From positions 124,001 to 188,000 of the forward strand of contig NZ_QWEO01000002.1 of assembly GCF_009936035.1 (NCBI RefSeq): a DNA stretch of 64,000 bases. The letters run 5' to 3'. Below the pieces are notes generated by a model that saw nothing but the letters and a program-made list of their open reading frames with translations, ran no database searches and was not told where the DNA came from. A program made the position numbers and the translations under genes. Positions 1-39,312 of the stretch are shown here, piece by piece. How positions within the stretch are numbered: the stretch's first letter is position 1; each line of letters opens with the position of its first letter. The stretch is from Neglectibacter sp. X58. Lineage in GTDB: Bacteria > Bacillota > Clostridia > Oscillospirales > Acutalibacteraceae.

Positions 1-363
1 GGCCCTCTGTTAGGGCTGTTTATCGCCAAAGAGCTGCTGATGCTCTGCTGTGCCTTGGTACTTTTGAAAAAGCGCCGCCGCCCCGGCGGGGCCAAGTGGT
101 ATGGCAAGGTGGCCACGGTGATGTTTTATGTGTCTGTGTCCGTCATTGTGGTGATGGACGGCCTGCACCTGGCCGCCACGCCCCAGGCCTTTTACACAGT
201 GTCCTTTGTGCTCCTGACGCTTACAGCCCTGATGATGCTGTACGCCGCTTTCCGGTATTCCCAGGTGTTCTTCACCCTGCTCCATTCCACCGACGAGGAA
301 AACCATCTGGATCTCCCGGATGAGATCCACGCCAAAAAAGGCGGCCCGCCCCCAGCGGCTTAG
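1..363 (+). CDS. CDP-alcohol phosphatidyltransferase, C-terminal part (5' end outside window)
   Basis: Reading frame 1 is open from the first base to a TAG at 361-363, so the start lies upstream. The visible 120 residues contain a basic loop followed by the segment AKWYGKVATVMFY and two hydrophobic helices, which is the C-terminal pattern of the CDP-alcohol phosphatidyltransferase family (PgsA or cardiolipin-synthase-like). Such integral membrane enzymes move a phosphatidyl group from CDP-diacylglycerol to an alcohol, usually glycerol-3-phosphate. The catalytic CDP-alcohol motif would lie upstream and cannot be seen, so the substrate is not assignable. The stop codon is formed by the first three bases of the inverted-repeat element that follows. 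Confidence 0.7.
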   Translation, partial: GPLLGLFIAKELLMLCCALVLLKKRRRPGGAKWYGKVATVMFYVSVSVIVVMDGLHLAATPQAFYTVSFVLLTLTALMMLYAAFRYSQVFFTLLHSTDEENHLDLPDEIHAKKGGPPPAA

Positions 364-587
364 GGCTTGTTTGGAAATAGAGAAAGTGCTGAATTTTTGA
401 GACAAAACGGAGCGGTTTCAAGGCGGATGAACCGCAAACGCACATATGCGTTTTAGACAGGCTGAACATTCCGTTTACGGAATGTTTTCGCCTTGTCGAG
501 GATTTTCAACTCAGAGAAACGCAAACGCATACATGCGTTCCGCTTTGGACAAAAAGACGGTGTTTTCGATTTTTCAAACAAGCCCTA
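361..587. repeat. Dispersed inverted-repeat element, family A copy 1
   Basis: The ends are imperfect inverted repeats, TAGGGCTTGTTTGGAAA at the left and TTTCAAACAAGCCCTA at the right. The interior holds smaller hairpins (ACGCAcatATGCGT type near 440, AACATTCCG/CGGAATGTT near 465-485) and the core shared with the copies at 11055-11216 and 39148-39312: GGTTTCAAGGCGGA..AACCGCAA at about 414-437, then TCGAGGATTTT at about 495-505. This copy is longer than the others because of the additional internal hairpins. It supplies the stop codon of the preceding gene. It could act as a terminator or be a non-autonomous mobile or REP-like element; it has no coding capacity. Confidence 0.75.
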
Positions 588-604
588 GGGCCTGCCTTAA
601 ACCC

Positions 605-680
605 AACGGAAAGGAGCGGCGCCGGTCTGCGCAAGGGGATTTTTCCCTTTTGTGCAGATTTTTGGTTCCCATAGCGTTTT
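605..680 (+). promoter_or_regulatory. Structured leader of addB, related to the tagD leader
   Basis: The 76 bases before addB begin with AACGGAAAGGAGCGG, contain a hairpin at 626-658 (TCTGC/GCAGA outer stem, GGG/CCC inner stem), and end GATTTTTGGT..CCATAGCG..TTTTATG. The leader of tagD (49783-49863) has the same order of blocks: AAAGGA.CGG..CCGG, a hairpin, GATTTTTGGT, CAT.GCG, T-run, ATG. Hairpin arms differ between the two but pair in both. The Shine-Dalgarno-like GAAAGGA lies about 60-70 bases upstream of the ATG and nothing purine-rich stands next to the start. Function unknown; an RNA element controlling translation is my inference. Confidence 0.5.
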
Positions 681-35944: not shown

Positions 35945-38900
35945 CTATTCCGCCAGCAGGGTGAAGGCAAAGGTGAAGTTCTGGGCGTCCAGCCGGTATT
36001 TTTCCAAAAGCTCCGGCCCACAGCTATTGCTGCCCACGCCGCTCATGGCATAATCCAGGCACAGCACCGTATCCCCGCAGGGAGCAAGCTCATGGTTGTG
36101 CCGGGCTTTTTTTAGCTGCTCCTGGGTATAGCGGGAGATGTTCATGGAGAAAGGCCGCTCTGCCGCGCAGGTGAGGGAAAAGGCCCCGTCTGAAACGGTG
36201 CAGGTGCGGCAGCCCATGTGGGAGGAGTTCTCCTGGGGCATGAGGTACGGCTCAAACATGCTGTCCACAGTCTGGGCATACACACCCAGCCGCGTGGCCT
36301 GGCGCTTGTCCACATAGCTTTCCGTAGGCCCATAGCCGAAATATTCCGCAAAGCCAAAGTCCTTTGGCAAAAACAGGCGCAGGCCGAACCGGGGCAGGTA
36401 AGGGAACCGGGCGTCCCGCTGGCAGTGCAGCTCGCAGTCAATGCGGCCCTGGGCGTCAATGTGCCACTGGGCGGTAATGTCCAGGAACTTGGCGATGGAA
36501 ACCGCGGCAATCCCCAGCCGGCAGGTGAGCACTGCCCCGCCGCTTTCGCCCCGGCTGGCCTCCACGCTGTATACCTTTACAGTGGGCCTGTCATAGCCAA
36601 CAGCCGTCCACTGCTTGTCTATATACTGATCGTTGTCCGTAGGCGCCCGGTATACGTTCCAGCCCATAGGCCGGGTAAGCAGGTTCCTGTTCTTGCAGGC
36701 CATGGAGGAGAAAAGCCCTGTCCGCTTGTCAAATTCATACCGGAAGCTGTCCCCGGCGATAACGAGGGAGCAAGGCCCCTCCTCTATGCGCACTTCCCCC
36801 TGGGCGGGAGCGTCCAGGAAGAAAGGCTCCTCGCTGAGGATAAGCTGGTCAAAGCCCAGCTCGTGGCCCGCCTCATAGAAGTCCCCGCCGTCCTTTGCCA
36901 GGTAGAAGAAGGTAAGGGCCACAATGCCCCCCTCCGGGATATCCAGCCCCGGGATTTCCACCTCCGCCTCCTCGTGGGGCGGGATGGAGGGCAGGCTAAG
37001 CGCCCCGGTCTGCAGCACTTCCCCGTCCTGGGCAAGCTCATACCGGAGGGAAACCGCCTCCCCCGCGTCGGTAAAGTCCAGGAAGTTGTGGAAAACAAAG
37101 GCGTTCCCGCCCTTCTCCGCCTGCCTGGCCCGCAGGGGGCGGATTACGTTTTTATATTCCAGCAGCCCTGTGTGGGGCGCCCGGTAGGGATATACCAGGC
37201 CGTCCATGCAGAAGTTCCCGTCGTGGGGGAACTCCCCGAAGTCCCCGCCATAGCGGTAAATGGGCTTGTTGTCCGGGGTCTGGCCCCCATACACGGCGTG
37301 GTCGCACCACTCCCACACAAAGCCCCCGCAGAAGCCGGGATACCGCATAATCTGCTGCTGGTAGTCCTCCCCGTCCCCAGGGCCGTTGCCCATGGCGTGG
37401 ATATACTCGCACTGGACAAAGGGCATACGCCTGCCCTGGAGGTTTTCGTCCAGTCCGCCGCCGCCGAAATAGGCGTCCACCTCCTGCACGGAGGCATACA
37501 TCCGGCTGTACAGATCCAGCATGGAGAAATCCGGGGTGCGGGCCTTATGGTAGGTGAGGAAGTTTTCATAGTGGAGCAGGCGGGAGGGGTCGTATGCCTT
37601 CACCCATTTCCCCGCGTCCTCAAAGTTCTCCCCCCAGCCGCTTTCGTTGCCCAAAGACCAGATGACAGCCGCCGCGTTGTTCTTGTCCCGGATGACACAC
37701 CGCTGCACTCGGTCTAAAATCGCCAGGGAGAACTGGGGATCATCAGCCAAGTCCGCATAGGCCTCGTCCCCGTCCACAAAGCCCAGCCCGCCGTATTTCT
37801 CCGCAGAGCCATGGCTCTCAATGTCTGCCTCGGCAATTACATAGAACCCAAAGCGGGAGCAGAGCTGCAAAAACCAGGGTGCGTTGGGATAGTGGCTGGT
37901 GCGGATGGCGTTGATGTTATGCTGTTTCATCAGGGCCAGATCCCGGAGGGCCTGCTCCCGGCTGATGGTGTAGCCTGTCACCGGGTCGCTGTCGTGGCGG
38001 TTCACCCCTCGGAACTTAATGGGCACGCCGTTTAAGAGCACCACTCCGTCCTGCACCTCAATTTTCCGCAGGCCCACCTGCTGGGCAATATACTCTTCCC
38101 GGGTGTTCAGCACCAGGGTATACTGGACAGGGCTTTCCGCGTTCCACAGCGCCGGGTTTTCCACCAAAAAGGTGAACTTCTCCCGCTCCGGCCCGGCTGT
38201 GGCCAAAAGGCTCCCCTGGGGGCTGTAAAGGGAGGCGAACACCTCCGCGTCCCCCATGGTTTCCAGCTCTACGGAAAGGGCGGCCTCTTTAAAATCCTCT
38301 GAGAAGCTTTCTTTTACAAAGTAGTCCCACAAAAAGCTTTGGGGCCTTGCCAACAGGTACACGTCCCGGAAAATGCCGCTCATGCGCAGCTTGTCCTGAT
38401 CCTCCAGATAGCTGCCGTCGCACCACTGCAGGACCAGCACCGCAATTTCATTGTCCCCGGGCTGCAAAAGCCCTGTCACCTCAAATTCCGAGGTGCAGTG
38501 GGAAACCTGGCTGTAGCCCGCGAACTCCCCGTTCACCCACAGGTAGAAGCAGGAGTCTACCCCCTCAAAGTTTAAAAACCACCGGGCGGAAAGGCTCTCC
38601 CCGGAGATTTCCACATGGCGCACATACAGCCCGCAGGGGTTTTCCTCCGGCACTGTAGGGGGATCCACCGGGAAGGGATAGCGGATGTTAGTGTACATAT
38701 GCCGGCCCCATCCCTGGTTCTGCCAGCAGGAGGGCACCGGGATGGCGTCCATGTCCGCCTCGTCAAAGCCCAGCTCCCCCTGGGGAGAGACAGCCTCTGA
38801 AAAGCTTTCGTAATACTGGAAGGCCCATTCCCCGTTTAAGGAGAACATCCTGCCGGACTGCTCCCCCAGGGCCTCCTTTTCAGAGGCGCAGGGCAGGTAA

Positions 38901-38974
38901 TAGCTGCGGTTTGGCATGGCGCCCACATGGAGAAGCTGTGGGTTTTCGTGAAATTGCATCCAGGGCTGGCTCAT
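35945..38974 (-). CDS. lacZ: Beta-galactosidase, glycoside hydrolase family 2 (LacZ type)
   Basis: The 1009-residue protein matches LacZ over its full length: sugar-binding jelly roll, two immunoglobulin-like domains flanking a TIM barrel, and the C-terminal small-chain domain ([16 protein letters not shown]). The barrel has [29 protein letters not shown] with the acid/base Glu, and [16 protein letters not shown] with the nucleophile Glu. It hydrolyses lactose and other beta-galactosides. There is no signal peptide, so it acts in the cytoplasm; no permease or regulator is adjacent. The galactokinase gene at 56.6 kb would use its product. The ribosome binding site is weak (GGTGA). Confidence 0.95.
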
Positions 38975-39147
38975 AAAAAATCACCATGTGATACAGGCTG
39001 CGCACAGCCGTATCGTTCCTTTCTGTTATGTATGGGATGTGCCCTTCCTGAAAGGGCGGGAGGCCGTCTGGAAATTTGACTTTCCCGCCTGAAAGGGATA
39101 TACTGGTACAAATAAGCTTACACTGAAAATTCCATGCCGTCAAGCCC

Positions 39148-39312
39148 TAGAGTCTGTCTTAAAACTCCGAAAAACCGTCTTTTTGTCCAGTGACAAGCGG
39201 TTTCTGTGTTAAAAATCCTCGAAATACGAAAGTATCTCTTGCGGTTTTCGCCTTGAAACCGCCCGCCCTGAACAAAAATACTGGCATTTCTCCGGTTTTA
39301 AAACAGACTCTA
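39148..39312. repeat. Dispersed inverted-repeat element, family A copy 3 (reverse orientation)
   Basis: The ends TAGAGTCTGTCTTAAAAC and GTTTTAAAACAGACTCTA pair with one mismatch. On the reverse strand the core reads GGTTTCAAGGCGAAAACCGC, then TTTCGAGGATTTTTAACACAG and GGACAAAAAGACGG, matching copies 1 and 2. The terminal arms are different from those of the other copies. It is about 165 bp and lies between divergent lacZ and the GT-C gene. The remaining 38975-39147 shows only a GCCCTTCCTGAAAGGGC hairpin and no clear promoter. Confidence 0.78.

Follow-up and report, generated by a model that had tools for sequence, protein, structure and literature searches.

Miniature inverted-repeat transposable elements (MITEs) are usually viewed as shrinking leftovers of one parent transposon. 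The elements considered here, three of which lie in a 64,000-nucleotide stretch of the Neglectibacter sp. X58 genome (contig NZ_QWEO01000002.1, positions 124,001 to 188,000; hereafter the window), resemble the MITEs of the IS5 family of insertion sequences (ISs), IS427 group, in that they are short, lack a transposase, possess IS-like terminal repeats, are flanked by TA and occur in many copies. They are unlike those MITEs in that the interior is better conserved than the ends, is strongly structured, is present in distant phyla and is combined with several types of ends. A 2024 report put forward 250 structured candidates of mobile or repeat character; one of these, MRSC-65-2, is described there as a long stem with covariation and more than 20,000 representatives across diverse phyla, as likely selfish and as possibly acting as DNA (PMC11109978). 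Like the present elements, MRSC-65-2 is a single long stem with strong covariation, reaches dozens of copies per genome and is sometimes located near a transposase; unlike them, it is described as carrying a conserved UYCCGG repeat, which is absent from the core consensus obtained here (PMC11109978). The pattern TYCCGG-N4-TYCCGG was found in 6 of 481 loci, the N4 spacing being our assumption, which may not be that of MRSC-65-2. The bcr1 repeats of the Bacillus cereus group are also mobile, measure about 150 bp and have a conserved secondary structure. They may be set apart by the title cited for them, which makes them specific to that group (PMC2267715). Since structured mobile repeats such as MRSC-65-2 have been reported, the kind is already known. 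The core itself was not recognised in the literature on such elements and surveys, as judged mostly by titles and abstracts and with subscription papers and supplements excepted. The covariance models of Rfam gave no match in the window at the gathering threshold and, at E up to 1, two matches among eight loci, neither of them at an element.

We consider it probable that these elements are MITEs moved in trans by IS427-like DDE transposases of the IS5 family, and that they enclose an inner fold conserved on one strand. The helper transposases would act on the elements by recognising the outer 16–20 bp and would insert them at TA (TNA in the case of subfamily A), different subfamilies carrying the ends of different helper ISs. 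The ends would thus differ between subfamilies because the helpers differ, whereas conservation of the inner arms and core would reflect the need for one of the strands to adopt a particular bulged hairpin. That strand, either RNA or single-stranded DNA, may be bound by a factor that aids movement or tolerance of the element.

A common core can be read in all three elements of the window, as the preliminary description had proposed. Copy 1 (361–587, plus strand; element proper 362–586, with the flanking T and A outside) contains the two core strands TTCAAGGCG..AACCGC (417–435) and TCGAGGATTTTCAACTCAG (496–514), both on the plus strand, between B-type terminal inverted repeats at 361–377 (plus), which is closely similar to the ends of two IS5-type ISs of the genus (L428 and L439), and at 571–587 (minus); it is longer than usual, with additional small hairpins in the apical loop and the 3′ arm. 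Copy 2 (11055–11216, plus strand) is an A-type element with TTA on either side, the inner A and T being counted, and has its core strands at 11108–11124 and 11143–11161 (TCGAGGATTTCTAACACAG), again on the plus strand. Copy 3 (39148–39312, minus strand) is a C-type element that comprises 39149–39311 and the flanking bases, with the left core strand at 39241–39257 and the right one at 39204–39222, both minus; its ends match those of an IS in another genome (L427, genome G005). In each of the three (362–586, 11055–11216 and 39149–39311 minus) the ends are complementary over 17–18 nt, and the fold is far better than in 200 shuffles, with z values of -8.9, -10.4 and -11.9 for copies 1, 2 and 3, respectively.

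In the 3.36-Mb genome the core pattern TTCAAGGCG-N(0-25)-AACCGC occurs 33 times, as against 0 for the reversed-pattern control, and BLAST with copy 2 returned 58 matches. A covariance model built from 25 full copies (R1) gave, at E up to 0.1 and with 150 of 1407 candidates scored, 83 rows that represent at least 66 distinct loci, so that the genome search suggested in the preliminary description has revealed many further copies. The typical element measures about 162 bp (80 of 92 copies span 160–165 bp), the longer ones, copy 1 among them, being enlarged, by eye, through additional small hairpins in either the apical loop or the 3′ arm, and the core has been lost from some copies of this genome (L066, L082 and L088). 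When 89 copies with flanks, drawn from this genome and its relatives, were classed by their ends, 19 were of type A (AGAAGCTGTACCGATAG), 42 of type B (AGGGCTTGTTTGAAAATAG), 19 of type C (AGAGTCTGTTTTAAAAC) and 7 of type D (AGGG..TGTTC.CAT), with two unclassed. Window copies 1, 2 and 3, being of types B, A and C, represent three subfamilies. The ends had been described as unique to each copy yet pairing with the opposite end of the same copy; they are indeed self-complementary, but they are shared within a subfamily and unique only within the window. The conservation of the core exceeds that of the ends, and comparison of the sequences indicates that the interior is conserved and strongly structured, the same core lying under several end types.

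That the elements are mobile, as had been suggested, is supported by their many copies, by their TA or TNA flanks and by the existence of uninterrupted copies of a target. If the A and T at the ends of the model are included, TA is present on both sides of 34 of 42 B copies, 14 of 19 C copies and all 7 D copies (together 55 of 68), and 14 of 19 A copies have an identical TNA on both sides. In genome G020 (L283) and in two predicted viral contigs (L306 and L319), a B element splits a 107-bp repeat at TA, and uninterrupted paralogous copies of this repeat are present in the window at 49671–49778 (plus strand) and 56409–56515 (minus strand). The target is itself a second dispersed palindromic repeat of about 107 bp with ends TATAGTAAACGCACTTGAAAATCGG, further copies of which are found in L110 (838–944) and L122 (from 1677). 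Beside copy 3, the sequence CAAGCCCTA (window 39138–39148) resembles the remnant of a B-type end, which suggests that the C element may have been inserted at the TA of an older copy.

Terminal repeats that match or closely resemble those of an IS were found for types B, C and D in other genomes of the genus and for the Pelomonas elements in their own genome. In Pelomonas Root1217, an 826-bp IS is bounded on each side by TAGGGCCTGTTAACAC, a sequence close to TAGGGCCTGTTAACGC of the Pelomonas elements in that genome, and has two frames that match DUF4096 and DDE_Tnp_1. A search with the second frame gave matches in 8 of 29 genus genomes, and 24 IS5-like loci of the genus were inspected for end pairs. 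The C-type IS (L427, 1029 bp) has TAGAGTCTGTTTTAAAAC at both ends, which diverge thereafter (TCT.. upstream and CGT.. downstream); the ends of the C element diverge at the same first base, with T.. on the right and C.. on the left. Other complete ISs have C-like ends (L442, 728 bp), B-like ends (L428 and L439, 853–866 bp) or D-like ends (L417, 806 bp), and short pieces carry D-like (L426) or B/C-like (L423) ends. Attribution of the helpers to the IS427 group is based on their domains, their length, the TA and the ISs listed in PMC3281130; in that report, elements of this group measure 832–865 bp and most have 2-bp repeats, and replicative transposition has been suggested for IS1248 (PMC3281130). 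In genome G005, around position 1720 of L438, a B element immediately adjoins one end of an IS5-type IS, TA being common to both.

Several observations weigh against mobilization by such helpers. TA is missing from one or both sides of 13 of the 68 B, C and D copies and, where present, could belong to the terminal repeat itself, while the uninterrupted target copies are paralogous repeats that read TG, not TA, at the insertion site. The protein match in L427 contains a stop, and a group of four identical-looking ISs in genome G022 (L416) as well as L420 have ends of the same style that were matched to no element type (L440 has other ends of that style). The three IS5-like protein matches of the own genome (L421, L425 and L432) are without a matching end pair, and most of the remaining loci among the 24 examined offered no convincing one. 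A helper for subfamily A was not found, an A end being located near contig ends in three loci of genome G006 from which the body was not recovered. The core does not reside inside the ISs: a core model built from 30 diverse sequences (R2) gave 2 matches in 29 loci, both outside ISs, one 680 bp beyond the IS of L417 and the other in the B element that abuts the IS end in L438. Helpers devoid of the core do not account for its origin and, as regards membership among IS5-type MITEs, the interior is neither helper-derived nor less conserved than the ends. Finally, the elements of Selenomonas type, considered below, have variable ends, and clear target duplications are mostly absent from them by eye.

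Selection on the folded form, as proposed in the preliminary description, is supported by compensatory change and by mispairs that differ between strands. For 30 diverse cores (alignment A3, 30 of the 35 sequences chosen, leaving out L130, L136, L275, L281 and L298), both sides change in 21 of 23 pairs, and 87.3% of the cells are paired as compared with 60.5% after shuffling and 35–52% after sliding. The alignment of close copies (A4) was assembled from 87 sources and consists of 92 matches that R1 gave with E values up to 1e-10. Of these, 89 are distinct, mostly at genus level and including one from another genus (L129); across the 89, both sides change in 38 of 49 pairs and 93.5% of the cells are paired, as compared with 76.6% after shuffling. 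In neither set did any of 500 shuffles reach any of the measures; relatedness alone can raise such values above those of shuffles in the absence of structure, but sliding likewise lowers them strongly. Mispairs are G.T in 331 cells and A.C in 99, or in 30 and 7 columns (p 0.0002, the columns not being independent), and the diverse set behaves similarly (62 versus 23 cells, 15 versus 4 columns). Mispair types seen once comprise 14 G.T and 24 A.C, whereas those seen in five or more copies comprise 19 G.T and 5 A.C (Fisher p 0.0016). Because a model of this strand was used to fit the alignment, G.T may be favoured; the same bias would be expected among the singletons, where it is not seen. Since the mispairs common to many copies are G.T rather than A.C and new ones are not, they point to selection acting on a single strand in its folded state, whether RNA or single-stranded DNA, which would most likely be read by a conserved factor, either during transposition or for insertions to be tolerable. 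A second conserved feature is visible by eye about 20 nt outward of the core, where GATTTTT stands opposite AAAAGA, possibly as tandem G-A.

Alternatively, these may be ordinary IS5-type MITEs, the covariation of the arms resulting from template switching that copied one arm onto the other and the core being kept by recent spread. Long near-palindromes do undergo template-switch correction, the arms are highly complementary even where their sequence differs between copies, and half of the 18 core columns conserved in at least 90% of the sequences are paired in the model. The other nine are unpaired, and mean identity is 0.77 in the 29 unpaired core columns as against 0.69 in the 26 paired ones; this slightly higher conservation of unpaired columns implies that internal loops are kept and not converted to pairs. 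As template switching would moreover have to accommodate retained mispairs that are G.T and not A.C, a preference not shared by singletons, and a core that spans Bacillota and Pseudomonadota with arms otherwise unrelated, we regard it as an unlikely explanation.

The distribution of the core is broad and uneven. R1 matches at E up to 0.01 were obtained in 23 of 60 relatives (own genome included), with patchy copy number. The core pattern was found in at least 116 stretches of named genomes; R1 supported, at E up to 1, 20 of 80 loci from the core-pattern scan, those without support being possibly chance matches or too distant, and, at E up to 0.1, 12 of 55 further loci (36 plus 19 viral). Members from other phyla with R1 support come from a Veillonellaceae metagenome-assembled genome (MAG), a Selenomonas MAG, two Pelomonas species and a Pseudomonadota MAG. 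For Hoeflea and another alphaproteobacterial MAG, both included in R2, the R1 E values were only 0.15 and 0.07, the core being visible by eye. R2 gave 6 to 81 matches per genome in ten genomes picked for holding a match (Pelomonas aquatica 41, Selenomonas 11, Hoeflea 6), counts in which the two strands of one locus may figure separately. In an even phylum sample, with at most 9 candidates scored in each genome, 10 of 398 (own genome included) matched at E up to 1e-4. Core and paired arms are present in Acutalibacter relatives, Paenibacillus, Selenomonas, Pelomonas and Hoeflea. Plasmids also carry copies, namely in Hoeflea sp. IMCC20628, where the match starts at the stop codon that ends a TRAP permease gene, and in Paenibacillus cellulosilyticus; a plasmid BLAST returned one record each for the Hoeflea-type and the Paenibacillus-type element and none for two Pelomonas elements, and a phage BLAST with window copy 2 gave no match. 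Two IMG/VR contigs contain two copies each, with identical DNA at those places, and a third, equal in length to a contig of genome G020, contains one copy, which is cut by the end of the available sequence. A match in a Desulfocapsa MAG (L158, 1–250) was dropped as a probable assembly snap-back, the contig opening with its own flank repeated in inverted form about a core-like hairpin.

The interior of these elements seems to live on beyond its parents, one folded core being found with the ends of several putative helpers and also in very distant bacteria. This implies that a mobile hairpin without coding capacity has a selected function, and what reads it becomes testable, the core measuring about 60 nt. 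The structured module of Bacillota and Pseudomonadota, RNA or single-stranded DNA, could represent a portable parasite core that was fitted with successive IS5-type ends, its folded internal loops being read by a host or transposase factor conserved across phyla; we advance this tentatively, as a proposal whose chances fall slightly short of even.

The preliminary description had also raised hairpin-primed replication, in which the element would generate its own new ends during copying. Elements of rumen genomes of Selenomonas type fit this wording best: conservation is confined to their inner arm, whereas the outer one is strongly variable between most copies yet paired. By eye, three of 12 such elements share one end, two more are mutually alike and seven differ, all of them being self-complementary. 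Within the genus, by contrast, the proposal found no support, since whole subfamilies inherit their ends, these ends match the terminal repeats of IS5-type elements or are similar to them, and the flanks are TA or TNA, as for a DDE transposase. We thus judge it very improbable, the variable Selenomonas ends leaving a small opening. A further inner subfamily, the ends of which read GGAAGC.ATGATGAAAGACG, is represented by three Selenomonas-type loci (L385, L386 and L389), two of them with possible 4-bp direct flanks by eye.

Under transposase-mediated insertion, the location of elements at gene ends, already pointed out for the window together with the stop of the gene upstream of copy 1, would be explained by insertion at TA within stop codons. 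Indeed, the frame upstream of copy 1 stops at the element's own TAG, which would have been rebuilt by insertion at the TA of a stop codon. In 45 copies of the own genome, 17 of the 90 element ends (7 left and 10 right) have an edge TAG that closes an open frame of 80 codons or more, some of which may be chance frames, and TAA stands one base outside the element at six more. Relative to neighbouring genes assigned by a simple longest-frame rule, the 43 copies considered divide into 21 in antisense to the genes on both sides, 9 in sense to both, 6 convergent, 6 divergent and one left uncalled, which amounts to a mild antisense excess over sense, if there is any bias. A role as sense-strand RNA was rejected, as the sense orientation is not in excess, and so was a fixed cis-regulatory RNA, there being no consistent orientation to neighbouring genes. 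That the elements are fixed cis-acting RNAs or terminators retained downstream of certain genes is scarcely credible: they often abut stop codons and show the mild antisense excess, but 12 of the 43 lie in convergent or divergent position, the tandem ones are found in either orientation, copy number is patchy in relatives, copies exist in predicted viral contigs and the target repeat has uninterrupted copies. A replication-strand bias was likewise discarded in the single-contig genome G401, where the 16 matches divide 9 versus 7 on the assumption that the origin is at the start of the record, with the terminus opposite.

In the window, a strong terminator-like palindrome, AAACGCACCTGGG..CCCAGGTGCGTTTTT (11014–11054), immediately precedes copy 2. 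Elements of distant genomes can be composite. In Pelomonas and in the USOA5 MAG, two hairpins sometimes lie within one pair of ends, the second being opposite in orientation and core-like (CAAGGCGC..AACGCCG), and Hoeflea elements also enclose a second hairpin, one without a clear core. P. aquatica has additional core-less hairpins of about 50–55 bp with such ends. In genome G384 (L359), a full core match is accompanied by a hairpin of lesser size, about 70 nt, which contains a CAAGG..GACACAGC motif and is possibly a minimal relative.

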